Assembly (NCBI GenBank): GCA_016872775.1
Contig: VGZA01000001.1
Location: 248,001 to 312,000 of the forward strand
Source: Planctomycetota bacterium
GTDB lineage: Bacteria > Planctomycetota > Planctomycetia > Pirellulales > Pirellulaceae
Reading direction: 5' to 3'
DNA length: 64,000 nucleotides
Position 1 is the first letter of the stretch, and every line of letters starts with the position of its first letter. This document shows positions 25,080 to 43,073 of this stretch, piece by piece. Under the pieces are notes generated by a model. That model saw only the letters and a program-made list of their open reading frames with translations. It ran no database searches and was not told the origin of the DNA. The position numbers were made by a program, and so were the translations under genes.

Positions 25080-27908
25080 ATGCCGATAGCCAGAGAGTTT
25101 CTCGCGTGGGATCGACCGGCGTTGGCGGGTGCCGTTGATTACCTACTCAACCGTTATCGGGTCGGCTCGATCTGGGATCTGCGTCAGGTGGTCGTGGCAT
25201 TGCCCGGTGCGCGAGCGGGACGGCGGCTGCTGGAGTTACTGGTGGACCGGGCCGACGAGTCGGGGTGCAGGCTCGTACCGCCCATCATCACGACGGCGGG
25301 CAAGGTACCGGAACTGCTGTATCACCCACAGCGGCCGTTTGCATCCGAGGTGGTGCAGCAGCTTGCCTGGCTACAGGCGATCCGGGGATTACCGATCGAG
25401 CGGCTGGAGCCGGTCGTACCGTACCCTCCACCGCCGACCGATTTTGAAAAATGGGCGGCGCTGGCGAGTCTCCTGTCGCGGCAGCACAGGGAGCTTGCCG
25501 GGGATCGGCTCGACTTTCAAAAGCTCGCGGAACTTGACTGGGACGTCGGCGCGGTCTGGGAACGGCGGCGTTGGCAGGTATTGTCCGAAATACAATCGGC
25601 CTATTTGCGATTGTTGGACAGCATCGGTTGCTGGGACTTGCAGACGGCGCGCCTTGTGGCGATTGAGCGTGGCGAATGCCGGACGGATTGCGACATCGTG
25701 CTGATCGGCACCAGCGACCTGAATCGCACGATTCGCCAGATGTTGGACGATGTGGCGGACCGCGTCACGACACTGATCCATGCTCCACGGGAATGGGCCG
25801 ACCGATTCGACGCGCATGGTTGCGTGGAGCCAGCGGCTTGGAGCACTGCCGAGATCGATCTGCGATCGTCGCAGGTGGAAGTCGTGGACGGGCCTGCTGA
25901 CCAGGCGGCGGTGGTGGTCGAGTATCTCGCGGGCTTGGGTCCGCGGCATGGCCGCGACGAAGTCACGATCGGCATCTTGGACGACACCTTGGTGCCGCAA
26001 TTGCAGCGGCAGTTGGGGGCGGCGGGATTGCCGACGCGATGGGTTGTTGGCCGGACGATGGCGATGATGGCGCCATTCCAGCTTCTGGCGGTGGCCGCGG
26101 ATTTCCTGAGCGACGATCGTTTTGCGGCGTTTGCCTCGCTGGTTCGACATCCGGACGTGGGAGATTTTCTGGGCCGAAGCGGGGTACCGGGCGATTGGTT
26201 GACACGGGTCGACATGTATTATGCCGAGCGACTTCCGCAGCGGCTGGGGAGTTGGGGGCGAGGCAATCACGGCGAGGACGTGGTGCAGCAGGTTTATGAC
26301 CGGATGAAGCAGTGGCTGGCACCGTTGCAGGGACCGGCGCGCTCGCTGCGCGATTGGTCGCAGCCATTACAGACGGTACTCGAGACAATCTATAGCGGGG
26401 TCGATGCGTCGCGCTCGACGGAAGCAGGCCATTACCTGCTGGCGGCATGCGGCGCGGTGCGAACGATGCTGTTGCAGTTTTCCACAATGCCGCCCGTCCT
26501 TGCGGCGGTCCTGAGTGCGCCGGAGGCAATTGCGTACCTGTTACGCAATCTGGAGTCGCAGGAAATTCCGCCACTTCCAGCGCCGGATTCGGTCGAAATG
26601 CTTGGCTGGCTGGAGCTGCCGTTGGACGATGCGCCGGTGACGATCATCACTTCGTTGAACGAGGGGGCAGTGCCTGAATCACTGAACAGCGACCTGTTTC
26701 TCCCCAACCAGTTGCGTGTCCGACTCGGGTTACTCGACAATGCGCGCCGCTACGCGCGCGACGCCTATGCGCTCAGCGCCATCCTGAGTCCCGGTCGAGT
26801 GGCGAAGGTGGTCACGGGGCGCCGCGATGCGGACGGCAACCCGCGTATTCCCGGTCGGTTGTTGTTCGCAACGCGACCGGAAGAAGCGGTGGAGCGAGCG
26901 CGGCGATGGTTCGCTCCGCCGGTTGCGCGCCCGCCGCTGGCCGCCCCGACCGTTCGCAATCGTTCCACGTTCGTGGTGCCTCGTCCCGCCCAGGACTCCG
27001 CGACTGTCTCGCGTTTGAGCGTCACTGCGTTCCGCAATTATCTCGCTTGTCCGTTCCGTTTCTATTTGCGCAACATTTTGCGGTTGCGAGCACTGGATGA
27101 TTCGGCGGAGGAACTCGACGGGGCAATGTTCGGGACGATGGTGCACGAGGTGCTGCGAATTTTCGGAACGAGCGAGCATCGCAATGCGACCGACGTCGAG
27201 CGGATTCGCGCCGTGCTGCATGACAGCCTGGACGATGTCTGCCGGCGGTACCTCGCCGATCAGCAGTTGGCGCCGATCCAGCTGCAGATTACCCAGATGC
27301 GGCTTCGACTGGATGCATTCGCCCAATGGCAAGCAGAATGGGCGCGCAGCGGTTGGACAATCCAGCACGTGGAAATGTGGGGCGAAGGCAATCCGCTGAA
27401 GATCGAAGTCGGCGGAGAATCGGTCATCGTCGACGGCCGCATCGATCGCGTCGATTGGCATGAGCACGATCGACGCTGGATGCTGCTTGACTACAAGACC
27501 AGCGACACGGCGATGACCCCGGAAAAGGTCCATCGACAGGGCGACGATTGGGTTGACCTGCAGCTGCCGCTCTATCACCAACTGACGCGTGCTTTATCCT
27601 GGACCGAACCTGTCGATCTGGGCTATCTGGTGCTGCCGAAGGACCTGCAGTCGGTTGGCTTGCTAAAGGCAAAGTGGAATTCAGAGGAACTCAAGGCGGC
27701 CCAGGAAGTTGCCAGGAACGTGGTGCAGCGAATTCTCAACCGCGAGTTCTGGCCGCCGACATCCCCCGCCCCGTTGCTGCTTCCGGAATTTGACCGCATC
27801 TGTCAGGAACGCACGCTCGATCGGAATCTCGGCGAGGAGCCATCCCCGGCCTGCGCGGCGGTCGATGCGCGGCCGCCCGCCAAGGATGGGGAAGGGAGGG
27901 CCGGCTGA
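25080..27908 (+). CDS. AddB-like PD-(D/E)XK nuclease family protein
   Basis: 942 residues, resembling the AddB subunit of AddAB helicase-nucleases, which process double-strand DNA ends for recombination. The N-terminus has PGARAGRRLLELL where AddB normally shows a Walker A motif; the Lys is lacking, so it probably does not bind ATP there. An inactive SF1-like middle region leads to the C-terminal nuclease: YLACPFRFYLRNILRL, then DGRIDRVDW and LLDYKTSD (residues ~783-812), giving the PD-(D/E)XK D...DYK signature. Only one of the usual iron-sulfur cysteines is clearly placed; the canonical C-terminal CxxC cluster is absent. It overlaps the addA-like gene by one base (TGATG). RBS GAAGAGGGCGA. 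Confidence 0.82.
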   Translation: MPIAREFLAWDRPALAGAVDYLLNRYRVGSIWDLRQVVVALPGARAGRRLLELLVDRADESGCRLVPPIITTAGKVPELLYHPQRPFASEVVQQLAWLQAIRGLPIERLEPVVPYPPPPTDFEKWAALASLLSRQHRELAGDRLDFQKLAELDWDVGAVWERRRWQVLSEIQSAYLRLLDSIGCWDLQTARLVAIERGECRTDCDIVLIGTSDLNRTIRQMLDDVADRVTTLIHAPREWADRFDAHGCVEPAAWSTAEIDLRSSQVEVVDGPADQAAVVVEYLAGLGPRHGRDEVTIGILDDTLVPQLQRQLGAAGLPTRWVVGRTMAMMAPFQLLAVAADFLSDDRFAAFASLVRHPDVGDFLGRSGVPGDWLTRVDMYYAERLPQRLGSWGRGNHGEDVVQQVYDRMKQWLAPLQGPARSLRDWSQPLQTVLETIYSGVDASRSTEAGHYLLAACGAVRTMLLQFSTMPPVLAAVLSAPEAIAYLLRNLESQEIPPLPAPDSVEMLGWLELPLDDAPVTIITSLNEGAVPESLNSDLFLPNQLRVRLGLLDNARRYARDAYALSAILSPGRVAKVVTGRRDADGNPRIPGRLLFATRPEEAVERARRWFAPPVARPPLAAPTVRNRSTFVVPRPAQDSATVSRLSVTAFRNYLACPFRFYLRNILRLRALDDSAEELDGAMFGTMVHEVLRIFGTSEHRNATDVERIRAVLHDSLDDVCRRYLADQQLAPIQLQITQMRLRLDAFAQWQAEWARSGWTIQHVEMWGEGNPLKIEVGGESVIVDGRIDRVDWHEHDRRWMLLDYKTSDTAMTPEKVHRQGDDWVDLQLPLYHQLTRALSWTEPVDLGYLVLPKDLQSVGLLKAKWNSEELKAAQEVARNVVQRILNREFWPPTSPAPLLLPEFDRICQERTLDRNLGEEPSPACAAVDARPPAKDGEGRAG

Positions 27909-30900
27909 TGTCTGCGTTTCGTCCCTTGATCATTCGAGCGTCCGCGGGAACGGGCAAGACATTTCAGTTGTCCAACCGCTATTTGTACCTGCTGTTCCGT
28001 GGCGTGGGTCCCGAGACGATCCTGGCGACCACTTTCACGCGCAAAGCCGCCGGGGAAATCCTCGACCGGGTTGTCGAGCGGTTGGCCCAAGCGGCCGCGA
28101 CGGACGAATCGGCTGCGGCTCTGGCGGAGCAACTCAAAGACGCGTCGGTAACTCGCGCGCGGTGTGTCGAAATGTTGATCGCAATGTTGCGCAACCTGCA
28201 TCGGCTGCGCATCAGCACGATGGACAGTCTGTTCGCGCATCTGGCCACCAGCCACTCGCTCGAACTCGGATTGCCGCCCGGTTGGGAAATCCTGGACGAC
28301 ATCCCCAACGCTCAACTGCGTCGCCGGGCGGTGGAGCAACTGCTGCGGGACGATCCCGACCGCGACATCGCCCGGCTATTGCACTTGATGGCGCAGGGCG
28401 ATGTGAACCGCTCGGTCAGTCAGTTATTGCAGGACACGGTCCGCGAGCTGTACGCGGTCTTCCTGGAAACCGAAGCGGAGGCATGGAATCAGTTCCCGGC
28501 CTGGTCCGCGCTCTCCGCGGAGGAACTCGATCGAGTCGTCGAGTCATTGCAGGCGGAATCGTACGACCGGGACAGCCGCATGACGAAGGCGCGGAACGAG
28601 GATCTGGTCCGATTCCGTGAGGAGGATTGGGAAGCGTTCATCGGCAAGGGGCTGGCGGCCAAGGTCATCGACGGCGATCCGCGGTACCACAAAAAGCCGA
28701 TCCCAGAGTCGTCGGTCGAACTTTACGGATTACTAATCCGGCATGCGCGGGGCTTGGTCGTCGGCCGGCTGTCGGCGCAGACGAAGGCAACGTATGACAT
28801 GCTGGCCCGGTTCCACAAAATATTTGTGGCGTTGAAATTGGACGAGGGGCGACTGCGGTTCGAGGACGTGACGCGGATTCTGGCGCAGGGTTTGAGTGAC
28901 TCGAATGCCCTCGCGGGCTTCGATTTCCGCCTGGACGCGAGCGTCGCTCATGTGCTGCTCGACGAATTCCAGGACACTTCGCTGCCTCAATGGCAGGCGA
29001 TTCGACCGTTCGCCGCGCGCGCCGTAATCAACTCGGACGATTCACCGCGCTCGGCGACGGCCGCTGGCGGAGCGGGACCAGCCGAGGCAACATCCGAGCC
29101 GCCGCGTGGTTCCTTTTTCTGCGTCGGCGATGAGAAGCAGGCGATCTATGCCTGGCGGGGTGGCCGGGCGGAGATCTTCGCGGCCTTGGAAAGCGAGATC
29201 CCCGGGGTCGATCGAGCGACCTTGGCGGAGAGTTTCCGTTCGGCTCCGGCGGTCATCGAGACGGTAAATCGCGTTTTTGAACGGCTCCCGCGGCACAACC
29301 ACCTGGAGCGATTCGAGTCGCACGTGCGGACCTGGTGCGAAGCGGTACCGCGACACACGACCGCGCATCGGGATCGCGCCGGCTACGTGACCCTGGAGTC
29401 GGCCCCGCGCGCCGACGAGTCCACGTTCCAGGTCGCACGGACTCTAGCCCATGCCGCGGATCGTATCGCTTCCCTGGTGGCGGCGTCGCCCGGACGATCG
29501 GTCGGCGTCCTGGCGCGCAAGAACGAAGCCGTGGCGCGCTTAATTTACGAATTGCGACAACGGGGCGTCGCCGCCAGCGAGGAGGGCGGCAATCCGCTCA
29601 CCGACTCCGTCGCCGTTCAGACAATCCTGTCGTTGCTGCATCTCGCAGACCACCCGGGAGACACGGTGTCGCGGTTTCATCTGGCGCATTCGCCGCTGGG
29701 GCCGATCCTGAAGTTCACCGATCATCAGGACAACGCAGGAGCCGCGCGGCTCGCAATCCATGTTCGCCGCTCGCTGCTCGAGCAGGGATACGGTCCGACG
29801 ATCGCGCGATGGACGAGCGAACTGCGGCCCCAGTTAGGTCCACGTGACTACCAGCGCATGGAGCAACTTGTCGAACTGGCGTACGGCTACCAGTCCGCGG
29901 CAACACTGCGAACGACAGAATTCGTTCGCCACATTGAAAGCGAACGGGTCGCCGATCCCCTGGTCGCCCCGGTTCGCGTGATGACCGTGCATCAGTCCAA
30001 GGGGCTGCAGTTCGACATCGTCGTACTCCCCGACCTCGACAGTTCGGCGACCGGACAACCAGCGACCTTCGTGACGCATCAGTCACACCCCACGAAGCCG
30101 GTCGATCGGGTTTGCCTCTACCGCAACGCCTCCGTCCAAAAACTGCTGCCGCATGACATCCGTGAGATGTTCGAGGAAGAGGACCGCAAGCAGATCAGCG
30201 AATCGCTGTGCGTGCTGTATGTCGCCATTACGCGCGCGATCCACGCGTTACATATGGTGATCGCTCCCTCCAAAAACTCGGAAACGAACCTGCCACGTTC
30301 CCATGCGGGCTTTCTTCGCGCTGCGCTCATCGAATCGGGGCTGGCGCCACCCGGTGAATTGCTGTACCAGGAGGGGGATCCGGACTGGCACAAGCGCACG
30401 GTGGTTCCGCCACAAACGATCCTCGTGCCGCAGGCGCGCCCGGAGATCACTCTCCGGCCGCTCCCCGACCATCGTCGGCGCGGGAGAGAGCGAACCGCGC
30501 CCTCCGGACTGGAATCGGGCGACCAGCAGGCGGTCGTCGATGCGCTGCGGACCGGCAACGCTTCCGGACGCCAATTCGGAACTCTTATCCACGCATGGTT
30601 CGAACAAATCGGCTGGTTGCCCAATGACCTTCCGACCGATGGCCAACTGCGCCGTATTGCGGAAGAACAAGAAGCGAGCGAGTTGAATGTCGAGGATTGC
30701 CTGCGGCGTTTTCAGCAGTTTCTGGGAAGCCCGTCCACGACAAAACTGCTGACGAAAAGCGACTACCTCACGGGGTTCGCCCAACGCGCATTGGATTCAG
30801 CGATCCAAGCGGCGGAGTTACGCGTCGATGTCGAACGCGAATATCCGTTCGCGGTGCAACAGGAAAATCAACTGCTGACCGGATTCGTGGATCGCTTGTT

Positions 30901-31126
30901 GTTAATCTATCAGGGCAATCGCCTGCTGGCGGCCGACATCGTCGACTACAAGACCGACACGATCGACCCGTCCGACCCGCGTGCCTTGCAGGCGGCAAAG
31001 GAGAGATACCGGCCCCAGCAGCAAGCATATCGCAGCGCGATCGCGCAAGTTTTCCAGTTGCCCACGACCCAGGTCCACGCAAGCCTGTTGTTCGTCACCG
31101 CCGGCGTCGAGGTGCCGATCGCCTGA
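27908..31126 (+). CDS. AddA-like UvrD-type helicase/exonuclease
   Basis: 1072 residues. SF1 DNA helicase with motif I RASAGTGKTFQL (Walker A Lys17, Thr18), motif II LLDEFQDTSLPQW, motif III SFFCVGDEKQAIYAWRGG, motif V VMTVHQSKGLQFDIVVLPD and motif VI LYVAITRA. A C-terminal RecB-type nuclease follows: LLTGFVDRLLLI then ADIVDYKTDT. It should form the active motor-nuclease of an AddAB-type recombination complex with the overlapping upstream gene. Start ATG 27908 is fixed by the one-base TGATG overlap. The end is 37 bases from the convergent hydroxyproline cluster. Confidence 0.88.
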   Translation: MSAFRPLIIRASAGTGKTFQLSNRYLYLLFRGVGPETILATTFTRKAAGEILDRVVERLAQAAATDESAAALAEQLKDASVTRARCVEMLIAMLRNLHRLRISTMDSLFAHLATSHSLELGLPPGWEILDDIPNAQLRRRAVEQLLRDDPDRDIARLLHLMAQGDVNRSVSQLLQDTVRELYAVFLETEAEAWNQFPAWSALSAEELDRVVESLQAESYDRDSRMTKARNEDLVRFREEDWEAFIGKGLAAKVIDGDPRYHKKPIPESSVELYGLLIRHARGLVVGRLSAQTKATYDMLARFHKIFVALKLDEGRLRFEDVTRILAQGLSDSNALAGFDFRLDASVAHVLLDEFQDTSLPQWQAIRPFAARAVINSDDSPRSATAAGGAGPAEATSEPPRGSFFCVGDEKQAIYAWRGGRAEIFAALESEIPGVDRATLAESFRSAPAVIETVNRVFERLPRHNHLERFESHVRTWCEAVPRHTTAHRDRAGYVTLESAPRADESTFQVARTLAHAADRIASLVAASPGRSVGVLARKNEAVARLIYELRQRGVAASEEGGNPLTDSVAVQTILSLLHLADHPGDTVSRFHLAHSPLGPILKFTDHQDNAGAARLAIHVRRSLLEQGYGPTIARWTSELRPQLGPRDYQRMEQLVELAYGYQSAATLRTTEFVRHIESERVADPLVAPVRVMTVHQSKGLQFDIVVLPDLDSSATGQPATFVTHQSHPTKPVDRVCLYRNASVQKLLPHDIREMFEEEDRKQISESLCVLYVAITRAIHALHMVIAPSKNSETNLPRSHAGFLRAALIESGLAPPGELLYQEGDPDWHKRTVVPPQTILVPQARPEITLRPLPDHRRRGRERTAPSGLESGDQQAVVDALRTGNASGRQFGTLIHAWFEQIGWLPNDLPTDGQLRRIAEEQEASELNVEDCLRRFQQFLGSPSTTKLLTKSDYLTGFAQRALDSAIQAAELRVDVEREYPFAVQQENQLLTGFVDRLLLIYQGNRLLAADIVDYKTDTIDPSDPRALQAAKERYRPQQQAYRSAIAQVFQLPTTQVHASLLFVTAGVEVPIA

Positions 31127-31163: not shown

Positions 31164-32423
31164 CTACAGAAATCGCTGCGGCGAGAATGGGCCAGCGTCG
31201 ATGTGCGTCGATTGGCCGGCCATCAGTTCCGCGATGAGCTTGCCGGTCGCTGTTGCCAGGCTCATTCCGAGCATGTTGTGCCCCGTCGCGAGATAGGCGT
31301 TCGCCAGCCTTGGCGTTCGCCCGATGATCGGTAAACTGTCCCAGGTCATCGGACGCCAGCCGTACCAGGTTTGAAGTTCGCCGGTCGGCGAAGACGCCGT
31401 GAGATAGTGCGAGGCCGAATCGCGCAGCTGCTGGATCCGATGAGCGGGGATGCTGCTGTCGAATCCGGCGAATTCCATCATCGACCCCAGGCGGTAACCC
31501 TGTTCGAAAGGCGAGACTCCGACACGGTGCTCGGGGAATAACATCGGATAGAGCGGGCATGGCGTGGGACGCGACATTGTTACCGAATAGCCTTTGCCCT
31601 GTTCGATCGGGATCGGACATTCCAGTTCCGTCGACAGCCGCGAACTCCAGGCACCTGTGGCGATCACGAAGCGGTCCGCTGTCATGGCCCCCTGCGAAGT
31701 GACGATGCGCGCGATACGGCCGTTCGACTTTTCCAGACGCTGTAATTCACATCGCTCCAGGAATGTCACTCCCCGTTCTTTGAGCCGCTTTGACCAGCTT
31801 GCGTTAAGCAGATCGGGGCGGAGCGACGTGTCGTTCGCGTAGTGAAAGGCTCCGGCCAATCCGGCCTTTAACGCCGGATCGAATTGAATCAGATCGCGCC
31901 CTTCGATACGCCGGGCAATCACGCCGAAATGGTCCGTCAACAGCCGATCCGTTTTTGCGAATTCCTCCATCCCATGCTCCGTCCGCAGGACATAAAGCAG
32001 GCCGGTCTCTTTCCACTCGCACTGGAAACGTTCCTCGGCGATCAACCGTTTGTATTCCCGCATCGAGGCGTCGAGAATCGCTTGAAGATGCCGGCCGGCG
32101 GCGAGCATTTGACGTTGATTGCAACGGCTGGCAAATTGCCACATCCATTTCAGTAACGCCGGGCTGAAGCGTGGCTTCACGCGAAAAGCGGCGTGGGGAT
32201 TGAACAGTGATTTCAGAGCGGTGCCAATCGCTCCCGGTTCCGTCAGCGGCATGACATGGCTGGGGCAAATGTAGCCACAATTACCGTACGAGCATGCGCC
32301 GCCGATCGTACCTTGATCGATCACCGTCACTTGCAGACCGGCCGCATTCAGGTAATGGGCACAGGCGATCCCGATGATACCCGATCCAACGACGATCACG
32401 TCAGGCTGTCTGGAGGAGGTCAC
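31164..32423 (-). CDS. FAD-dependent oxidoreductase, probable D-hydroxyproline dehydrogenase
   Basis: 419 residues from GTG 32423, which overlaps the racemase stop by four bases (GTGA); the longer ORF to 32693 lies inside the racemase gene. DadA/glycine-oxidase fold: FAD-binding VIVVGSGIIGIACAHYL at the N-terminus, RFVIATGAWSSRL, and a C-terminal YGWRPMTWDSLPIIGRTP with ATGHNMLGMSLATATGKLIAELM. Family knowledge: such enzymes next to hydroxyproline 2-epimerase oxidise cis-4-hydroxy-D-proline to 1-pyrroline-4-hydroxy-2-carboxylate. The gene context (racemase and DapA-like lyase) supports that role; a general D-amino-acid dehydrogenase cannot be excluded. Last gene of the cluster. Confidence 0.87.
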   Translation of the reverse strand: MTSSRQPDVIVVGSGIIGIACAHYLNAAGLQVTVIDQGTIGGACSYGNCGYICPSHVMPLTEPGAIGTALKSLFNPHAAFRVKPRFSPALLKWMWQFASRCNQRQMLAAGRHLQAILDASMREYKRLIAEERFQCEWKETGLLYVLRTEHGMEEFAKTDRLLTDHFGVIARRIEGRDLIQFDPALKAGLAGAFHYANDTSLRPDLLNASWSKRLKERGVTFLERCELQRLEKSNGRIARIVTSQGAMTADRFVIATGAWSSRLSTELECPIPIEQGKGYSVTMSRPTPCPLYPMLFPEHRVGVSPFEQGYRLGSMMEFAGFDSSIPAHRIQQLRDSASHYLTASSPTGELQTWYGWRPMTWDSLPIIGRTPRLANAYLATGHNMLGMSLATATGKLIAELMAGQSTHIDAGPFSPQRFL

Positions 32424-33412
32424 GAGCCGCTCCCAAAAGCGATGCCATTGCGAAAGGGATCGTCCGGTTGCTGAATCAAGTTCGCCTCGGCGCACACGTA
32501 AGCACGCCCCGACACCGTGGGGATAATCCGGCCGTTTTCGTCGTGGCGATACGAGGCGGAAAAGCGACTGCCGATAATGCTCTCCTGGACCCAGGACGCG
32601 CCCGGTTCGAGTTTGCCATCGGCGGCAAGGCAGGCGAGTTTCGCGCTGGTACCGGTTCCGCAAGGCGAGCGATCGAAAGCGCCGCCGGGACAATAGACAA
32701 AGTTGCGGCTGTTCGCTGCCGCCGACTGCGCCGGGCCGAAGAATTCGACGTGGTCGATTTCCGCGTCATCGATTCCCGTAATCCGCTGCTGTCGCAAGGC
32801 GATCCGAATTTGATGGGCCGCATCGTTCAAAGCACGGATGTTGTCGGCGGTCAGTGGAAACGGTGATTCCTCAACAAGAAAGAACCAATTCCCTCCCCAG
32901 GCAATGTCGCCGAAAACGGTGCCAAAGGGCGCAACCTGGACAGCCACGCGCGAGCGATAGCGGAAACTGGGCACATTTTCGATGGCGACTTCGTTCGGGG
33001 AGAGCAACCTCACCTCGACGATGCCCACCGGTGTCTCCAGACGATGCGTTCCGATGCCGATCCGGCCGAGGTAGGCGAGCGTCACCGCCACTCCGATCGT
33101 GCCATGTCCACACATTCCCAGAAATCCGGCATTGTTGAAGTAAATCACTCCCGCCGCGCAGGATCGATCGTGCGGTTCGCAAATCAGCGCGCCGACCAAT
33201 GCCTCGGATCCGCGAGGCTCGAGAATCACGGCTCGGCGAAAGTCATCCGCCGTCGCGCGAAATCGCCGCAAGCGTTCGGCGAGCGGCCCAGGCCCCAGGT
33301 CGGGACCACCGCTCAGAACTACCCGCGTCGGTTCGCCCTCCGTGTGCGAATCGACCACGCGGATTCCGGAGCAGGCCTCGTTCAATTGTCCGCTCCCGGC
33401 CATCGGCTCCAC
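32420..33412 (-). CDS. Proline racemase family, probable 4-hydroxyproline 2-epimerase
   Basis: 330 residues. Both catalytic cysteines of the proline racemase/hydroxyproline epimerase fold are present: Cys101 in MCGHGTIGVA and Cys251 in DRSPCGTGTSAK; trans-3-hydroxyproline dehydratases would have Thr in the second position or Ser in the first. It should interconvert trans-4-hydroxy-L-proline and cis-4-hydroxy-D-proline in the cytoplasm. The start ATG 33412 overlaps the DapA-like gene by 31 bases; a second ATG at 33403 is also possible. It overlaps the FAD oxidoreductase by four bases, so the two are probably translated as a unit. Confidence 0.9.
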   Translation of the reverse strand: MEPMAGSGQLNEACSGIRVVDSHTEGEPTRVVLSGGPDLGPGPLAERLRRFRATADDFRRAVILEPRGSEALVGALICEPHDRSCAAGVIYFNNAGFLGMCGHGTIGVAVTLAYLGRIGIGTHRLETPVGIVEVRLLSPNEVAIENVPSFRYRSRVAVQVAPFGTVFGDIAWGGNWFFLVEESPFPLTADNIRALNDAAHQIRIALRQQRITGIDDAEIDHVEFFGPAQSAAANSRNFVYCPGGAFDRSPCGTGTSAKLACLAADGKLEPGASWVQESIIGSRFSASYRHDENGRIIPTVSGRAYVCAEANLIQQPDDPFRNGIAFGSGS

Positions 33413-34326
33413 CAGTTTTTAAAAAGTTGCCATTGTTGCCGCGCGAATTCACGCTGCGTCGGGCTGAGTACGTCCGTCTCGTTGAAGTTCAGCTCGAACG
33501 CAGGATTACCCTCCAACACCAACAGGTACTTATAGTACAGCACCAGATCCGGGCCCTCGTCAAACTTCGAGAGCACGTGCAGTGCCTCGTCGAGTTCCAG
33601 GGCGCGCTGTCTTGCGACCGCGTCGCCGGCGGCGGCCTGTTCACACAGGGCGATCAGGCGCAGTACCTGCCTGGGCAGCGCGTTGCCGATCCCGGTGATC
33701 GCGCCCACCGCGCCGCAACGCACGAAACCATGAAAGACCTGCGTGTCGACGCCGACCATCAACGCGAGTTCGGGATCACCACTGGTGATAAATTCGGCGG
33801 CATAGCTCAGGGATTCCGCCCCGCCAAACTCTTTGAATCCGACCAGGTTTCGATGTTCGCTGCGCAGCTGCTTGAATAGTTCGGCCCGGGTCTGAAAACC
33901 ATAGTAAGGGCTGTTATAGATGACCGCCGGCAGGTCGCCGCCCGCCTGCAGAACCGCGGAAAAGTGCGCGTATTGAGCCGACGGAGCGGTGCCACGCGAA
34001 AGCAACCGCGGGATCAGCATCAGACCGGCCGCTCCCACCTTCTTCGCGTGCGCGGCATGTTCCGCCGCGCGTCTCGGATTCTGAGCTCCCGTGCCGACGA
34101 CGACCGGTATTCCCGCCTCGACCAGCCGCCGCACACCTTCCTGCCGCTGCTCGTCGGTGAGCAGCGGCCAGTCCCCCATCGATCCGCAGTAGACGACCGC
34201 GCGCATTCCGGCGTCGATCAGTTCCCGCGCTTTGCGCACAAGCCCCTCGTAGTTCGCCGAACGGTCCGCGAAGCATGGCGTCATCAGCGCCGGCATGCAG
34301 CCATGAAAAACATCCGAAGACGACAT
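33382..34326 (-). CDS. DapA/NAL family lyase, probable 1-pyrroline-4-hydroxy-2-carboxylate deaminase
   Basis: 314 residues, TIM barrel of the dihydrodipicolinate synthase family. The Schiff-base lysine is Lys165 in LVGFKEFGG and the proton-relay tyrosine is Tyr137 in VIYNSPYYG. Family knowledge: in hydroxyproline operons the DapA-like member (LhpC type) converts 1-pyrroline-4-hydroxy-2-carboxylate to 2-oxoglutarate semialdehyde and ammonia. The overlap with the racemase gene supports that assignment, though sequence alone cannot rule out another aldolase. A semialdehyde dehydrogenase to finish the pathway is not seen in this window. Confidence 0.86.
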   Translation of the reverse strand: MSSSDVFHGCMPALMTPCFADRSANYEGLVRKARELIDAGMRAVVYCGSMGDWPLLTDEQRQEGVRRLVEAGIPVVVGTGAQNPRRAAEHAAHAKKVGAAGLMLIPRLLSRGTAPSAQYAHFSAVLQAGGDLPAVIYNSPYYGFQTRAELFKQLRSEHRNLVGFKEFGGAESLSYAAEFITSGDPELALMVGVDTQVFHGFVRCGAVGAITGIGNALPRQVLRLIALCEQAAAGDAVARQRALELDEALHVLSKFDEGPDLVLYYKYLLVLEGNPAFELNFNETDVLSPTQREFARQQWQLFKNWWSRWPGADN

Positions 34327-34472
34327 CAGGCAGGCCCTTTCAAGCTAAGTAAAGAATCCGAGCGGCGGTCATCGTCCCACGGATGGCGATCGAATGGAAC
34401 CAGGGCCGCCGATAGCAATATCCCCATTATTTCCTGGTACATCCAGGGGGCTGGATCGGCAAGCGAATGAGC

Positions 34473-35981
34473 TCACTGGCGCGCGGGAATCTCATTCACC
34501 GTGTAATACGCATTGCGATGCAGCAGCTCTTCCTCGTCGCGCGATCGCAGACCGCCCAGGTCGAACTCGTAGACGAAACCTCGGTCGAGTTTTTCCAAGG
34601 TGAGTCTTGCCGAAAGTCCATCTTCCGCAAGCGCAACCGCTTGGACGGCCGCCTTGTGCCGCTCGATCTCCGGGCCGCCGTAACCGGCGTGGTAAGGGTG
34701 CGTAAACGCCGAAATCCGATAGGAGTCGGTGCTGCATCCGGTGGCTCGATCCACCGCTTTGGTAAACGTGACATGGAACCCGTCCGGCGTAATCGTGACA
34801 CGGTTGATCTCAAACGGCATCTTGCCGCTCCATTCGACCCGCTCCAGGGCAAATGGCTTGATACCTCGAACCGGCCAGCCTCGGTTCGTCCCACCGCACA
34901 GCAGTTTGCCGCCGGGAGTGAATTCCACGTTGAGAATGCCGGTCGAAAGCCCTTCGCGAAACGGATAGCAGGCGCCTTGCCAGACGTCGTTGATCTTCTC
35001 CGTCGTGGCGCGCATCAGGATCGAGAGTGTGTAGTCGCCCAGGAACAGTTGATCCTCGAAGGGGCCAAATTTGCCTTGCGTTCGATTGACGCTGAATGCG
35101 GTGATTGACCGCCCCATGCGAATGTAGGGAAACACCACGGCATAAGGAACCAATTGTCGCACACGGTTCCGTTCCGCCGCGATGCGGCCGCCCGAGTTTG
35201 GCATCTCCGGCTCCGGACCCAACTCGGGCGAGTAGGGGTACCAATGAAAACTCGCGGGGTGACCGTGAAAACTACTCGCAGAAACCGCTTTCAAACTGCA
35301 CGAACAGTTCCACGGTCCCTGACTCTCCACATAGAACAGCGCGCCGTGCTCGTCGAAGCCGATCCCGCCCGGACTACGCAAACCGGTGGCGAATGCCGTG
35401 CTCGTTCCAGCGGATGTGACTTTCATGATGAAACCGCGGTTCAAGGCGTGCGAATAATAGGACTCCGATAGACCAAGTGCCACGTACTGGTTTCCATCAG
35501 CATCGGGCTTCGAGCCGAACGCATATTCGTGGTAATTCGCGTATCCCCATGCATCCGAGATCGTCTCAAAGCGATCGGCCAGGCCGTCGCCATCCGAGTC
35601 GCTGACGCGTGTCAACTCGCAGCTCTGCGTGACCCGGAAAGCGTTGTCCTTCCATGCCAGCCCGAAAATTTCGTCCAGCCCCGAGGCGAAACGATGGAAT
35701 GACGGGAGCGGCTTGGACGCATCGATACCATCGATCAAGAAGATCTCGCCATGCCGCGTTCCTACGGCGATACGTCCGTCCGGCAATACGGCAAAAGCAC
35801 CCGCTTCAATGATCGTGTCCTTCGGCATCGGAGTGTTGACGATCGGGTAATACTCCCTTTCGCGTTCCTCCGTTCCCCAACGATCGCCAACCTCCTCGCC
35901 GCGCAGCACACCGACCGCGCCGATCGTGGACAGTATCAGCAGACAGAGGAGTTGCAGGCGATTACTTCGAAACTGCTTCAT
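34473..35981 (-). CDS. Secreted beta-propeller glucose/sorbosone dehydrogenase-like protein
   Basis: 502 residues with a signal peptide (LQLLCLLILSTIGAVGVLRG). The body shows propeller-blade repeats such as FAVLPDGRIAVGTRHGEIFLID and SPGGIGFDEHGALFYVESQG, plus a calcium-binding-like DSDGDGLADRFE. This resembles PVC-group sorbosone dehydrogenase/L-sorbosone-type propellers that occur beside c-type cytochromes. It overlaps the multi-haem cytochrome gene by 20 bases, so the two are coupled. Substrate unknown; a periplasmic dehydrogenase donating electrons to the cytochrome is an inference. Confidence 0.8.
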   Translation of the reverse strand: MKQFRSNRLQLLCLLILSTIGAVGVLRGEEVGDRWGTEEREREYYPIVNTPMPKDTIIEAGAFAVLPDGRIAVGTRHGEIFLIDGIDASKPLPSFHRFASGLDEIFGLAWKDNAFRVTQSCELTRVSDSDGDGLADRFETISDAWGYANYHEYAFGSKPDADGNQYVALGLSESYYSHALNRGFIMKVTSAGTSTAFATGLRSPGGIGFDEHGALFYVESQGPWNCSCSLKAVSASSFHGHPASFHWYPYSPELGPEPEMPNSGGRIAAERNRVRQLVPYAVVFPYIRMGRSITAFSVNRTQGKFGPFEDQLFLGDYTLSILMRATTEKINDVWQGACYPFREGLSTGILNVEFTPGGKLLCGGTNRGWPVRGIKPFALERVEWSGKMPFEINRVTITPDGFHVTFTKAVDRATGCSTDSYRISAFTHPYHAGYGGPEIERHKAAVQAVALAEDGLSARLTLEKLDRGFVYEFDLGGLRSRDEEELLHRNAYYTVNEIPARQ

Positions 35982-38367
35982 AAAGGAGCTCCAGCGTCGA
36001 TTTGCCTTCCGGAATGGGCAGTCGCAACAGCAGTTCGAACTGCGCGGCTTCCTCGGAAATCGGTTTCCGTTTCAATTCCGCGCGCGGAACCGTTAACCGC
36101 AGGCGACCGCTGCGGAAGACCTGTTCCGACTCCTGCCGGACATCTCCGGTGAGCGCCCGAAACCAGACCGTCTGCGGCTCGGGAGAGTCGAACTGAAAAA
36201 TGCGTTGCAGACGTAGCTGCTCCTCCGTCCCAACCGCCACCGACCGATCCGTGATCTCGATCGTTCCGCAGCGGTACATGAACGAAGGAATTGATGATCC
36301 GTCGAGGAAGTAGCCGCGGAACTGATAGCCGACATTTTTTGGGTAGAGCGGATTAGGGTTGGTACGAGCCTGTTTGGTCATCACCGGCATGCGAGGCCAC
36401 GATGCTTCTTCATCCGCGAGTTGCACGAACGAAACATCCTGCGCAAGGGTGATCGGATCACTTGCGGGCTGGAAGTCACCCGAACCCTGGCCACTCCAAT
36501 TGACGCCGATGAAGTCCCCGCGCCAGATCGCCGACAGCGTTCCCGTTTCGGCGTTGAAAGCATAGTTCAACTTTTCCGGCAGGCCGACGGCGATGCCTCG
36601 ATAACCCGCCACGCGGCTGCGTCCGCGATAGGTCTTGGCGCGGTCTTCGACCACCAGCTTTGTGCTCTCCGCCCGCAGGCCAGGCGGATCGGCGGCGGAT
36701 GTGCCAAGCGAAAGGTAGTACCAGATCGCTTCAATCTGCTTGTCGGTGTCGCCCTCCAGAATGGTCTTATGCGTGGCAACTCCGTTCGGCCATGCTGTCG
36801 GCATGATGGTCCTGGGACGAAACGCCCCAGGATTGCGCAGGTAGGCATCGAACCACACCGGTTGGAGACGCTGATAGCTGGTAAGCAACTCAATGCCCTG
36901 GTTGACCAGCGAGTTCTTCCCGTTGAAGTCATGGCAGGCGATGCAGTTCAGCCCTTTGTCGCCGAGCAATTCCCGGCCCGCCGCGCGATGCTGCTTTTCC
37001 CGTTCACGCTCGATTTCGGAGCGACTTTCGGGGCTGGGAATTTTCATTTCTCTGCCGGGCATTCGATCGATGCGAGCGAAGATGGCCGGCAAATGCTGCA
37101 GGTTGGTGCTGCCGTACTGAGGCATCCGCGTTTCCATGTAATGGCGGACGCTCTCGCCATCGAATAGTACCTTCTTGAGCCAGGCCGGCTGCAGTTTGGC
37201 CCCAACCAGCGTCAGGGGTGGCGGGATGCGTCCGTCGTCACCCAGTTTCTGATCGCTCGAAACAAAAAACACATTATGCGAGGGGTGAACACCTCCAGCA
37301 TCGTCGCGAACGTGACAGGCAAGGCAATTAAATGCGGTCAGAGTTTTCGCCGCCGCAACTTGATCCGTGTCGTCGAGGGGAGTTTCCTCCAGCGCGGCGG
37401 CAATCGCATTCCGCTGCGCGTCTTCGAGTTGAAAACGGGGGCTACGGCGGTCGGCAGGGGAGAGGCAGCCGCGCGTTACATTCCCTTTTTTCAACGCGCC
37501 GATCGATGGCGCCGCTGGGATGCCAGGCAAGCCATGACACGCCGCACAGTTCAAGTCCTGAAAGTACTTTCTTCCCAGCGACACAAGGGAATCGTTGGCG
37601 CTAAGCGACTTTACCTGTTGCGCAGAATTTCCGACGAGATAACCTGCGATGGCCAACGACTCGGCTCGCGTCAACTTCAGATCGGGCATCCGACCCGATT
37701 TTCGGACTCGCAGCGGTTGAAACAGGAAGTCGCCGAGAGATCGCACACTGTATTTGGCGGGGACCTGTCCAAGCGGTATCGCAGTCGGTCGGAAGTGTCT
37801 GTTCGCCGCCCGCGGTTGTTTCACGTCGTCGTGCCCCTCCTCGTCCTCATCCCCATGCTCGTCGTTCGCAACCTTAGCCGTAGCTCCATCGGAAATCGCT
37901 TCCTGCGGACCATGACATACAACGCAACCGATCGAGTGAAATAGAGTTTTTCCCCAAGCAAGATCGAGTTGCTCGGTGTTCTCGCTGGAAAACGAGGCAT
38001 TCGATTGGGCGATCAAAAAGTGAGTGAGCGCCTCGGCGATTCGATCGCGTTCCGCTTCAGGTTTCGCCATCAACAGGTCGGGCATCGTTGTGCCCGGGTG
38101 CGCCGCTGACGGCGATGCCAGAAATCGCTGCAGATACTCGGGGGCAATTCTCGCTCCGACTTCGCTCAGATCGGGAGCGGTCTTTTCCGTCAACGAGTCA
38201 CGCGGGACGCCTTGATGGCACGCGGCGCAGCGCAGTTCCGAGATCAGCACCTGCCCCGCTTGAACCTGCGTGAGCGGATGGTTCCCCGGCAGCGCCGGAT
38301 CGGCGGCCGCGACCGATGAATTGACGATCGCGATCCAGGAAGTCAGAAGTGCGGTGAATGTTCTCAT
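35962..38367 (-). CDS. Multi-haem cytochrome c domain protein
   Basis: 801 residues from ATG 38367 (MRTFTALLTSWIAIVNSSVAAA, signal peptide); an upstream ATG at 38433 is less likely. Five CXXCH haem-attachment motifs: CAACH, CVVCH, CAACH, CLACH and CIACH, spread over roughly residues 45-500. The C-terminal ~250 residues form a beta-rich domain without haem motifs (YFLDGSSIPSFMYRCGTIEITD). Predicted periplasmic electron-transfer protein with cytochrome c domains. The neighbouring propeller gene overlaps it by 20 bases and the enolase-superfamily gene is 62 bases upstream, so it is embedded in the hydroxyproline cluster. Confidence 0.86.
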   Translation of the reverse strand: MRTFTALLTSWIAIVNSSVAAADPALPGNHPLTQVQAGQVLISELRCAACHQGVPRDSLTEKTAPDLSEVGARIAPEYLQRFLASPSAAHPGTTMPDLLMAKPEAERDRIAEALTHFLIAQSNASFSSENTEQLDLAWGKTLFHSIGCVVCHGPQEAISDGATAKVANDEHGDEDEEGHDDVKQPRAANRHFRPTAIPLGQVPAKYSVRSLGDFLFQPLRVRKSGRMPDLKLTRAESLAIAGYLVGNSAQQVKSLSANDSLVSLGRKYFQDLNCAACHGLPGIPAAPSIGALKKGNVTRGCLSPADRRSPRFQLEDAQRNAIAAALEETPLDDTDQVAAAKTLTAFNCLACHVRDDAGGVHPSHNVFFVSSDQKLGDDGRIPPPLTLVGAKLQPAWLKKVLFDGESVRHYMETRMPQYGSTNLQHLPAIFARIDRMPGREMKIPSPESRSEIEREREKQHRAAGRELLGDKGLNCIACHDFNGKNSLVNQGIELLTSYQRLQPVWFDAYLRNPGAFRPRTIMPTAWPNGVATHKTILEGDTDKQIEAIWYYLSLGTSAADPPGLRAESTKLVVEDRAKTYRGRSRVAGYRGIAVGLPEKLNYAFNAETGTLSAIWRGDFIGVNWSGQGSGDFQPASDPITLAQDVSFVQLADEEASWPRMPVMTKQARTNPNPLYPKNVGYQFRGYFLDGSSIPSFMYRCGTIEITDRSVAVGTEEQLRLQRIFQFDSPEPQTVWFRALTGDVRQESEQVFRSGRLRLTVPRAELKRKPISEEAAQFELLLRLPIPEGKSTLELLYEAVSK

Positions 38368-38429
38368 GGTCCCTTCCACCAACATCGCCGGCAGGGTGGC
38401 GATAAGCTGCTTTCGAGCTGGTTGGGAGA

Positions 38430-39533
38430 TCACGAAACTTCCACGACCCGTTGGCCAAGCACGTCCATGCGAGGACGCACACCCAGTCCTGGCTCGCTGC
38501 TGGCAGACATGAATCCTTGCCGGCGCTGGGGAGCGCCGTGCGCGGTGCTGACCGTGACGTAACTATTGAAATCGGTACTGGTGAAGCGATATTCCTCGGG
38601 GGTACTATGCGCGAGGTGTGCAATCGCCGCCGTAGTAATGTCGCCTCCCCAGCTATCTTCGAGCGTCATGGCGATTCCGATCGCGACGCACAAGTCGCGC
38701 GCCTGGCGGGTCTTCGTCAGCCCCCCAAGCTTGCTGATTTTCAGATTGACAACGTCCATCGCCAGGTCGGCCTTGCCGCGCAGCAGCATGTCGAGCGAGT
38801 CGATATTCTCGTCGAGCACAAACGGGTGACGGGTATTGCGGCGTACCGCGAGGCACTCTTCGTAGGTCAGGCAGGGCTGTTCGATGTAGACGTCGACGTC
38901 CTGGACGGCCCGGACGACGCGCATCGCTTCGTGCTGCGTCCAGCCGGTGTTCGCGTCCGCCACGAGTCGATCGGTCGGCTGCAACATGGCGCGCACGGCG
39001 CGAATCCGTTCAATGTCGGTATCGGGATCGCCTCCGACTTTCAGTTGAAATCGAGTATAACCCTGCTCGCGGTACCCTTGGACGTTCTTCGCCATTTCCT
39101 CGGGTGCCTGTTGCGAAATGGCGCGATAGAGACGCACGCTCTCGCCAAACCGGCCACCCAGCAATGTGCAGACCGGCAGTTGCGTCGCTTTGCCGAGCAG
39201 GTCCCAGCAGGCGATGTCGATTCCCGATTTGACGTACGGATGCCCCTTGAGCGCCGCGTCCATGCGATGATTGAGTTTCAGTATTTCGCGCGGATCGAAG
39301 CCAAGCAGGTGCGGACCCAGCTCGCGCAGTCCCGCGCGCACCCCCTCGGCATACGCCGGCAGATAAAACGGACCCAGCGGACATACCTCGCCGTAGCCGA
39401 CGAGTCCGCCGTCGGTTTCGACGCCGACGATCGTACTGTCGAATACCGAAACCGACTTTCCACCAGACCACTTGTACGAGCCTTCCACCAACGGCAGCTC
39501 GACGCGATGGGCAAAAATGCGAGCAATTTTCAT
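38430..39533 (-). CDS. Enolase superfamily (MR/MLE) enzyme, probable cis-3-hydroxy-L-proline dehydratase
   Basis: 367 residues from ATG 39533. Mandelate racemase/muconate lactonizing fold. Metal ligands are Asp193 (VADANTGW), Glu218 (YIEQPC) and Asp241 (LDENID); candidate acid/base lysines are Lys165 (FQLKVGG) and Lys265 ([10 protein letters not shown]). The block [21 protein letters not shown] and the sequence TSTDFNSY are what I associate with cis-3-hydroxyproline dehydratases and hydroxyproline-betaine epimerases of this superfamily. The adjacent 4-hydroxyproline genes favour a hydroxyproline role. A muconate- or dipeptide-epimerase activity cannot be excluded by eye. First gene of the cluster; three palindromes lie 32-103 bases upstream. 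Confidence 0.78.
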
Positions 39534-41305: not shown

Positions 41306-41615
41306 TGAGTTGCCTCATTTCAAAGTTGTTTTTTCATCATCCTGCACACTTGGCGGCAATCACCGAACGGTGCCATTGTAGCGGGCTCGTCAGGAATTCT
41401 CCAGGAAAGCATCCGAGGGACTTCATCCCGCCGGGCAATACACCTTTCGGGCAGTGGCACGCGACCGCATGCAGCAGGCCCACGAACTCCGGACCTGGCG
41501 GAAAGACGCGGGGCGTAGGGTCCGTGGTATCGTGTCCGAGATGTCGACGGGACTGACAGAAGACTGCTCACGAGTCGTTTCAGCAACTGGCATTCGCCTC
41601 CGAGGATGATCACCC

Positions 41616-42234
41616 ATGAACCGCATCGATCTGTCACCGCGTCGAACGACCCAGCCGCTCCTGGGACTGGTCGTGACACTCGTCGCACACTTGCTGGCCG
41701 CTCATTCGCTTCGCGCTCAGGACGAGCCGGACGACTTCCGCTGGATGCGGGCGCGAATTACGTCGCCTCGTACGCCGCAACCAGTGTGGAGATGTGGCAT
41801 CGCTACGACCATGCGATCATCGACCAGGAGCTGGGCTATGCCCGGAAGATGGGACTGAATTGCGTGCGTGTGTTTCTCCAGTCGCTGGTCTACCATCACG
41901 ATCCGCAGACGTTCCTGGCGAACTTCGAGGACTTCTTGGCCACGGCAGACAAGCACGGGCTGAAGGTCATGCCGATCCTGTTCGACTCGTGCTTCGGTGT
42001 GTCGCCCAGTCTCGAGAGCCGACACATCTGGGTCGCCAATCCCGATCCGGATCGAATGGCATCAAATTGGTGGCCTGAGTCGGATGCGTACGCGACGGCT
42101 GTGGTGTCGGCCCACGCTCGTGACAAGCGGATCGCGCTCTGGGACGTGATGAACGAGCCGACCGCTACGCACCTGGCCGCCACGCCCGAGGGCAAGGCCT
42201 TGATCGACGCGTTTAACATCGACGAAAAGCGGAG
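41616..42234 (+). pseudogene. Truncated, frameshifted glycoside hydrolase (endo-mannanase/cellulase-like)
   Basis: The signal peptide is encoded from ATG 41616 (TTQPLLGLVVTLVAHLLAAHSLRA), then the frame shifts near 41745 to a second frame with the catalytic-domain start GANYVASYAATSVEMWHRYD, YARKMGLNCVRVFLQS and IALWDVMNEP. The last is the clan GH-A motif with the acid/base Glu after Asn. The coding sequence ends abruptly at the 3' end of a tRNA-Arg gene on the opposite strand; the remaining barrel and the nucleophile Glu are lost. The gene is therefore both shifted and truncated. Confidence 0.75.
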
Positions 42235-42308
<74 letters not shown>

Positions 42309-42479
42309 GTTGCAATTGTAAAAATGCCTGGGCCGTCGTTACCTGCCCAAACGCGTCGAGACTGACCCTTAACACACGCGTCCCGACGAATGAGCAAGTC
42401 TACTCTTTCCGCCCCTTCACGCAAGCCGCGATTTCCTCTCTGGAGGCACAGCGCCACCGGCACGCCCGTGTTCGCCGAT

Positions 42480-43073
42480 CTACCACCGCAGGACCACGCG
42501 ATGGACAGTCAGCTCCTGGTGCTTTGAACTAATGCCAACACGATCCGCGATGTCTGTTCCGACCGGCGTCCCGTCGGGGCACGCTGCGATCCTCCCAAGC
42601 ATGAAGGACGCGACGCGGCGATCGAAGTCTCTCAACTCGGGAATCGTTGCGTTGGCGATCATGTGAGCAAATCGGGCAATCGAGATCGGTTCCACATCCC
42701 GAACGACACCGACCTCACTGGGCAGTCCCGTTTCCACGCCGACGAAAAAGTGCACGAGTCTTCTGACTCGCTTGCGAGGTTTGGCATTCGCGGGCGCGGG
42801 AATCAACCATTCTCCATCTTTGGTGTGCGTATTCCGTCCGACATCCGTCCGCAAAACAATCACCTTGGTGGTCGTCGTTTCCGGCCCCGCAGTGAAACCA
42901 GGCGGCAGCAGCCACAGATTGCCGCGATCAACCGACGGGGATTCATCGCTCCAGGTCAGAGGGCCGTCTTCGATGTTGAGAACAACTTCGCAATCACAAA
43001 ACGCCCCATTGCCTTCGAGAGCGTCCAGCAGATCGTCCCAATTGACGGCGCGTTCGGCGGGCCCATGCAGCAC
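42480..43073 (-). CDS. Hypothetical protein with DUF2695-like N-terminus
   Basis: 197 residues. The N-terminal NWDDLLDALEGNGAFCDCEVVLNIE resembles the DUF2695 CDCEV motif; the rest is unassigned. Start taken as GTG 43073, which overlaps an alternative TAG stop of the upstream membrane protein frame (TAGTG), suggesting coupling. The function is unknown. The mature protein has no signal peptide and is probably cytoplasmic. Confidence 0.6.
   Translation of the reverse strand: MLHGPAERAVNWDDLLDALEGNGAFCDCEVVLNIEDGPLTWSDESPSVDRGNLWLLPPGFTAGPETTTTKVIVLRTDVGRNTHTKDGEWLIPAPANAKPRKRVRRLVHFFVGVETGLPSEVGVVRDVEPISIARFAHMIANATIPELRDFDRRVASFMLGRIAACPDGTPVGTDIADRVGISSKHQELTVHRVVLRW

Follow-up and report, generated by a model that had tools for sequence, protein, structure and literature searches.

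A probable hydroxyproline catabolic operon in a planctomycete genome

Hydroxyprolines are amino acids of collagen and of algal walls. Bacterial gene clusters for their breakdown include, in the excerpts of the literature on which we draw here, PA1252-1269 of Pseudomonas aeruginosa (PMC5144071) and the L-hydroxyproline cluster of Labrenzia aggregata, which contains LhpJ, an enzyme reported to dehydrate cis-3-hydroxy-L-proline (PMC5144071). In addition, one Roseibium and two Ruegeria plasmids carry genes for a DHDPS-family protein, a proline racemase, a flavin adenine dinucleotide (FAD) oxidoreductase and a cis-3-hydroxyproline dehydratase side by side. In this study we analyzed a 64,000-nucleotide stretch of planctomycete DNA, referred to below as the window, which lies on one contig (C1) of a 5.85 Mb genome that is 99.9% complete, and in which six genes at 31164 to 39533 include counterparts of these four. 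Based on sequence comparisons, we consider it probable, at about 0.82, that this locus is a hydroxyproline catabolic operon. What was observed is family membership and gene order, from which we infer every reaction in this organism. The combined cluster is itself of a known kind, because these four core genes are also neighbours on the Roseibium and Ruegeria plasmids. The open-access literature that we searched describes, by title, no hydroxyproline cluster of a planctomycete, and the locus would extend hydroxyproline catabolism, with support from many genomes, to this phylum.

The six co-directional genes that a preliminary description of this DNA had claimed are present in the span given there. 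By their open reading frame (ORF) positions they run on the minus strand from 39533 to 31164 and are transcribed in the order ENO, CYTC, NHL, DAPA, EPI, DAO. That description was correct as far as it named the genes, although two of the six, CYTC and NHL, went unnamed. They form two tight blocks, enolase-cytochrome-propeller (ENO-CYTC-NHL) and DapA-epimerase-FAD oxidoreductase (DAPA-EPI-DAO), with 146 bases between them and with overlapping neighbours inside each (ENO/CYTC, CYTC/NHL and DAPA/EPI). The overlap that had been claimed between the FAD gene and the epimerase gene holds if DAO starts at the GTG at 32423, in which case EPI and DAO share GTGA; the profile and structure-relative searches for DAO used a version 11 residues longer than the 419-amino acid form from that start. 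The features are as follows.

38430..39533, minus strand: ENO, enolase-type dehydratase; 367 amino acids, with K165, D193, E218, D241 and K265
35962..38433, minus strand: CYTC, c-type cytochrome; 823 amino acids, five CxxCH motifs (69, 170, 296, 370, 497) and a C-terminal beta region
34473..35981, minus strand: NHL, propeller, like soluble quinoprotein sugar dehydrogenases; 502 amino acids, no CxxCH
33382..34326, minus strand: DAPA, DapA-like; 314 amino acids, YNSPYYG from 137 and K165 in GFKEFGG
32420..33412, minus strand: EPI, putative 4-hydroxyproline 2-epimerase; 330 amino acids, C101 and C251
31164..32423, minus strand: DAO, candidate FAD-dependent D-hydroxyproline dehydrogenase/oxidase; about 419 amino acids, PF01266
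40046..41305, minus strand: SASA-family carbohydrate esterase, upstream and possibly in the locus; PF03629, 61.5 bits
39566..39635, no strand: 16-base palindrome TCGAARCNNGYTTCGA, three copies between the esterase and ENO, from a pattern search

ENO scored 617.2 bits against the curated model NF043002, above its equivalog cut-off of 500, and its best solved chain was 4mgg (512 bits, with the next at 331), which we take to be the characterised Labrenzia enzyme. The residues K165, D193, E218, D241 and K265 were invariant in 115 of 115 aligned ENO homologues, near-copies included, and agree with the description in PMC5144071, a comparison made by kind of residue and not position by position. Together with the gene neighbourhoods, these results support the earlier claim that the first gene encodes an enolase-superfamily cis-3-hydroxyproline dehydratase, and ENO would dehydrate a 2,3-cis-3-hydroxyproline. 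A muconate or dipeptide epimerase, the contrary placement raised with that claim, was ruled out, the muconate model giving 116.7 bits versus a cut-off of 335. The four relatives of ENO with 93-94% identity are in records titled as planctomycete, in line with the phylum supposed in the preliminary description. Loci with ENO homologues 84-92% identical were also present in metagenome-assembled genome records titled Klebsiella pneumoniae, Candidatus Kuenenia and Akkermansia muciniphila (L068, L036, L100, L101 and others), titles that look doubtful, that of Klebsiella pneumoniae most of all.

In the second block, EPI would convert trans-4-hydroxy-L-proline to cis-4-hydroxy-D-proline. It scored 471.1 bits against NF052296 (cut-off 450), its best solved relative was the LhpA-type PA1268 (2azp, 371 bits), and, as had been noted from the sequence, it carries both epimerase Cys residues, C101 in MCGHG and C251 in SPCGTG. 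The genome has a single proline-racemase match, which is above the cut-off. A trans-3-hydroxyproline dehydratase was ruled out, given both Cys residues and scores of 135-169 versus cut-offs of 540-550 for those models. DAO, which matched PF01266 at 227 bits, would oxidise cis-4-hydroxy-D-proline to pyrroline-4-hydroxy-2-carboxylate, and DAPA would deaminate and dehydrate this product to alpha-ketoglutarate semialdehyde, the reaction and superfamily expected from the available part of PMC4113996. DAPA matched PF00701 at 95 bits and grouped with the solved 2hmc, 4mpq and 5czj (433-447 bits, with the next at 81); a true DapA was ruled out, the DapA model giving 93.7 versus a cut-off of 206 and the 2hmc group being far closer. 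Among the listed model matches of DAPA there was no curated model named for the deaminase role, and the DapA-like deaminase of the preliminary description is borne out by the solved relatives, the Tyr and Lys motifs (YNSPYYG and K165) and the neighbourhood, in all of which DAPA is like the known deaminases. Since the identities of ENO, EPI and DAPA are supported and DAO matches at the level of its superfamily, the three trans-4-hydroxy-L-proline steps previously proposed are plausible. Collagen and algal walls, proposed with them, are possible sources of the substrate.

The semialdehyde dehydrogenase was correctly described as missing at the locus: an aldehyde dehydrogenase query, taken from the hydroxyproline-type cluster of another genome (G013), gave no match on C1. 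Over the whole genome it gave five matches (two on C32 and one each on C15, C23 and C74), of which the best was on C32. This unlinked protein of 526 amino acids is 66% identical to one encoded between EPI and DAPA in the hydroxyproline cluster of genome G027, a likeness in sequence by which it may supply the missing step, oxidising alpha-ketoglutarate semialdehyde to alpha-ketoglutarate.

The window has in common with the Labrenzia (LhpJ) and the Roseibium and Ruegeria clusters a DHDPS, a proline-racemase-family epimerase, an FAD oxidoreductase and an enolase-type dehydratase, and identity to the plasmid-cluster proteins is 63-68% for DAPA, 53% for EPI (Ruegeria) and 63% for ENO. Unlike the window, all three plasmid clusters have a second proline-racemase-family gene and a GntR regulator, and both Ruegeria clusters have an amino-acid transporter, with an adjoining aldehyde dehydrogenase in THAF33, neither of which is present in the window. 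Conversely, the plasmid clusters lack the CYTC and NHL that separate ENO from DAPA in the window. In the Ruegeria AD91A cluster (L225:13206-14715), the aldehyde dehydrogenase was an unannotated match in two pieces, and its gene may be broken. Three plasmid DHDPS regions were in different settings, one with peptide transport and proline iminopeptidase, one mixed and one hydroxyproline-like, and there was no annotated proline racemase in the stretches shown of these three.

A similar cluster in other planctomycetes had been named as possible support, and the adjacency of EPI, DAO and DAPA does recur in other genomes. In a survey of 60 genomes, that of the window included, in which a match was taken as an E value of 1e-50 or better, ENO was present in 35, EPI in 31 and DAPA in 22. 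ENO and EPI were both present in 27 genomes, ENO only in 8, EPI only in 4 and neither in 21 (Fisher test, 2.7e-6, without correction for kinship), and DAPA always occurred with ENO or EPI (22 of 22 genomes). Among the 29 genomes without EPI, DAPA was found in five of the eight with ENO and in none of the 21 without it. Six of those eight show no proline-racemase match above the cut-off, and DAPA is present in four of the six, inside the ENO cluster in G048 and G050 and on a separate contig from ENO in G001 and G004. The other two have a racemase; G033 is without DAPA, and G036 has a divergent racemase within its DAPA cluster. Three arrangements were apparent from the neighbour maps: DAPA-EPI-DAO, as in G041 (L166) and in G013 (L165), where a divergent regulator is followed by aldehyde dehydrogenase, DAPA, EPI and DAO; ENO-EPI-DAO, as in G002 and G005 (L173 and L174); and ENO-DAPA. 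DAPA orthologues are beside both epimerase and oxidase in the window, in L165-L168 and in L181, and beside the epimerase alone in L164.

The surroundings of ENO were compared in 80 loci, which are the top 80 among 508 relatives and have identities of 82% or more; several share a genome (for example, L032 and L033), and 1.5 kb of downstream flank was available in 73 and 5 kb in 55. DAPA was downstream of ENO on the same strand, at 30-4055 bases, in 18 loci (ten within 189 bases), and a second DHDPS type was downstream in 5 further loci. EPI was identified in one locus, L096, alongside the second DHDPS type, and the queries for DAO, OCD, Ldh_2 and aldehyde dehydrogenase gave no match in the 80. 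In part of the planctomycete loci, then, DAPA follows an enolase without a nearby epimerase or oxidase, unlike the known deaminase setting. A tree of 49 DAPA-related rows placed the second DHDPS type well outside, with DAPA from the ENO and the EPI contexts in one family (100/100 support). A tree of 41 rows was built from different rows only, without the second DHDPS type or duplicates (L039 is missing, its match being in pieces). In it the 19 rows from an ENO context cannot be explained by fewer than two context changes, a single clade is rejected (approximately unbiased (AU) test, p 1.4e-5), and the rows are clustered, with 2 changes versus 8.6 in shuffles. With two changes and a single clade rejected, one DAPA family seems, as far as the sequences indicate, to have joined ENO on more than one occasion. 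The Schlesneria records L065 and L092 have in common a long conserved region in which the enolase is accompanied by the second DHDPS type and a prolyl-peptidase-like gene. A PAS and AraC regulator (one member annotated; L090:9113-9892) is upstream of ENO in relatives, mostly divergent; its cluster is found in 26 of the 80 loci and not in the window at 24001-46000.

Several observations weigh against a hydroxyproline operon. EPI is below the older 4-hydroxyproline epimerase model PRK13970 (388 versus 442), and also below PRK13971 (203 versus 376). DAO scored 259.3 bits with the D-amino acid dehydrogenase model PRK00711, under its cut-off of 383, reached no curated subfamily cut-off among the 25 of 56 matches listed, and is only 28.5% identical to the oxidoreductase of the Ruegeria cluster; the FAD D-amino-acid dehydrogenase that had been proposed is supported at the level of the superfamily only. 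None of the six genes encodes a transporter. The C32 aldehyde dehydrogenase is far under two curated ketoglutarate-semialdehyde cut-offs (96 versus 750 and 94 versus 770), and its first role may be in sugar-acid breakdown because it adjoins another DHDPS gene. Finally, CYTC and NHL, about half of the operon length, are not explained by the hydroxyproline pathway.

The part played by ENO can be read in more than one way. We give somewhat under an even chance to ENO serving cis-3-hydroxy-L-proline, with an unlinked Ldh_2 reductase completing the path to L-proline and DAPA being near only through a shared regulon. This agrees with the NF043002 match and with the dehydration reported for LhpJ of Labrenzia aggregata (PMC5144071), and the genome has three Ldh_2 genes, all unlinked to the locus and of uncertain function, as well as one proline dehydrogenase match, inside a 1267-amino acid frame. 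However, the two Ldh_2 proteins compared were nearer to other dehydrogenases than to the piperideine-2-carboxylate reductase 1wtj, no OCD-family reductase was matched in the genome, and the retention of DAPA in the four ENO genomes with no racemase match would be left unexplained. Of the 3-hydroxyproline route in the preliminary description, the enolase identity holds, but the route is weaker, because that of the literature needs a pyrroline-2-carboxylate reductase, which is not among the six genes and for which the four queries gave nothing in the 80 ENO loci. Further support for the cis-3-hydroxy-L-proline assignment comes from the Phaeobacter cis-3-hydroxyproline cluster (enolase, OCD, aconitase X), in which a homologous enolase, 56% identical to ENO, adjoins an OCD gene. 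This cluster differs from the window in having the OCD reductase and in that its annotation shows neither a DHDPS nor a proline racemase up to 10 kb away. The Phaeobacter enolase departs from the other 114 sequences at 29 positions where at least 97% of these agree, but it is a single OCD-context sequence, from which no rule follows, and a second search gave no other record near to it.

CYTC and NHL probably form a redox pair that is exported and that came with genes for the breakdown of sugars or glycoproteins. CYTC matches PF00034 and PF13442, and its predicted structure is of low confidence (predicted local distance difference test, pLDDT, 63.9). NHL matches DUF7133 (28 bits, cut-off 27) and, weakly, the PVC-type TIGR02604 (22 bits, cut-off 122). 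The best match of its predicted structure (pLDDT 83.2) was 1qbi, a soluble glucose dehydrogenase (Z 30.1, root-mean-square deviation 3.3, 321 aligned), and other propeller kinds in the match list score 22-25; the modelled propeller thus resembles, in fold only, the soluble quinoprotein (pyrroloquinoline quinone) sugar dehydrogenases. Among 21 loci with a CYTC match above 250 bits, counting the window (L078 and L169 denote one place), a propeller match starts at most 200 bases away on the same strand in 16; two contigs stop at the cytochrome, and three divergent loci have aligned parts that are 1.2 kb apart. Of the 80 ENO loci, 15 have a CYTC homologue, and in three of these the identity is only 36-37%. 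As CYTC-NHL pairs also occur away from ENO, in G010, G018 and G051 (CYTC 49-55% identical), the pair is not tied to hydroxyproline alone. Our guess is that CYTC and NHL oxidise sugars of hydroxyproline glycoproteins, which fits the homologues of dipeptidyl peptidase IV (DPP IV)-type peptidase, sulfatase and esterase near ENO in relatives.

On a broader and more tentative reading, which we hold to be possible at perhaps one chance in three, the locus serves mainly glycoprotein breakdown and uses hydroxyproline as the final sugar-linked residue. At distances of up to 10 kb from ENO, clusters with one annotated member correspond to a DPP IV-type prolyl peptidase in 24 of the 80 loci, a sulfatase in 16 and the PAS-AraC regulator in 26; these occur alongside the 15 loci with CYTC and 12 with an esterase homologue of at least 150 bits, and the modelled likeness of NHL to sugar dehydrogenases points in the same direction. 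These counts, however, are from the surroundings of ENO only, and sulfatases are also found beside other planctomycete-type cytochromes in Verrucomicrobia, according to the available text of PMC5615132. The CYTC-NHL pairs away from ENO also argue against this reading, and the window itself has only the esterase and CYTC-NHL, its DPP IV homologue being on C81.

We regard as possible, though less likely than not, an undescribed planctomycete two-step route for 3,4-dihydroxy-L-proline, which would join the 4-hydroxyproline route at DAPA in the window. ENO would remove the 3-hydroxyl of 3,4-dihydroxy-L-proline to give pyrroline-4-hydroxy-2-carboxylate, the DAPA substrate, and DAPA would convert it to alpha-ketoglutarate semialdehyde with no need of a pyrroline-2-carboxylate reductase. 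Such a route would account for the pairing of ENO and DAPA where epimerase, oxidase and reductase are missing: DAPA is downstream of ENO in 18 of the 80 loci and the second DHDPS type in 5 more, EPI is in one and the other four queries found nothing, and G001, G004, G048 and G050 have ENO and DAPA with no proline racemase above the cut-off. The distribution of DAPA among the EPI-less genomes (five of eight versus none of 21, G036 having its divergent racemase) and the finding that ENO-context and EPI-context DAPA are not two separate clades (AU p 1.4e-5) are likewise consistent with it. However, the stereochemistry may not fit. The natural isomer of 3,4-dihydroxyproline is 2,3-cis-3,4-trans. 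In many of the genomes that contain the 80 loci, EPI and DAO may be encoded at another place, G032 being an example for EPI, and the flanks are limited, with 5 kb downstream in 55. In addition, the clustering of the ENO-context rows on the tree makes a substrate shift possible, the same ENO family also stands with EPI and DAO, and DAPA and ENO are on different contigs in G001 and G004. A precedent is PaLhpI, an unrelated, isofunctional enzyme that accepts 2,3-cis-3,4-cis-3,4-dihydroxy-L-proline, for which its authors infer pyrroline-4S-hydroxy-2-carboxylate as the product (PMC5144071), but it is about 300 times slower on dihydroxyproline than on cis-3-hydroxyproline, and the excerpts of the literature used here report no trial of an enolase-type enzyme on dihydroxyproline. 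Diatom cell walls are stated to contain 3,4-dihydroxyproline (PMC4557024, PMC5501833), which is called a general feature of diatoms in the accessible text of PMC5501833. If true, this would be a bacterial route for a diatom-wall amino acid for which we found no catabolic route in the open-access literature searched.

The palindrome TCGAARCNNGYTTCGA between the esterase and ENO was identified at 117 places genome-wide, in several groups of two to four in the listed part, and its reversed control pattern at none; with 117 places, it was ruled out as an operator specific to the operon. Predicted promoters and terminators were not clearly more numerous than in shuffled sequence (4 versus 2.9 and 8 versus 11.3, respectively). 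Beyond the operon end, AddB-like and AddA-like genes at 25080-31126 on the plus strand, far under curated cut-offs, converge on it with 37 bases between. On the other side, the first 200 residues of an ORF at 41606-42532 (plus strand) look by eye like the start of a glycosidase, with no match in Pfam, and the ORF runs into a tRNA-Arg(TCT) at 42234-42308 (minus strand), as if the gene had been cut short there. Further along, the plus-strand gene at 52080-54002 encodes an asparagine-synthase-like protein (499 bits, cut-off 267) that scored 642 bits with the XrtA/PEP-CTERM amidotransferase model, under the cut-off of 817.

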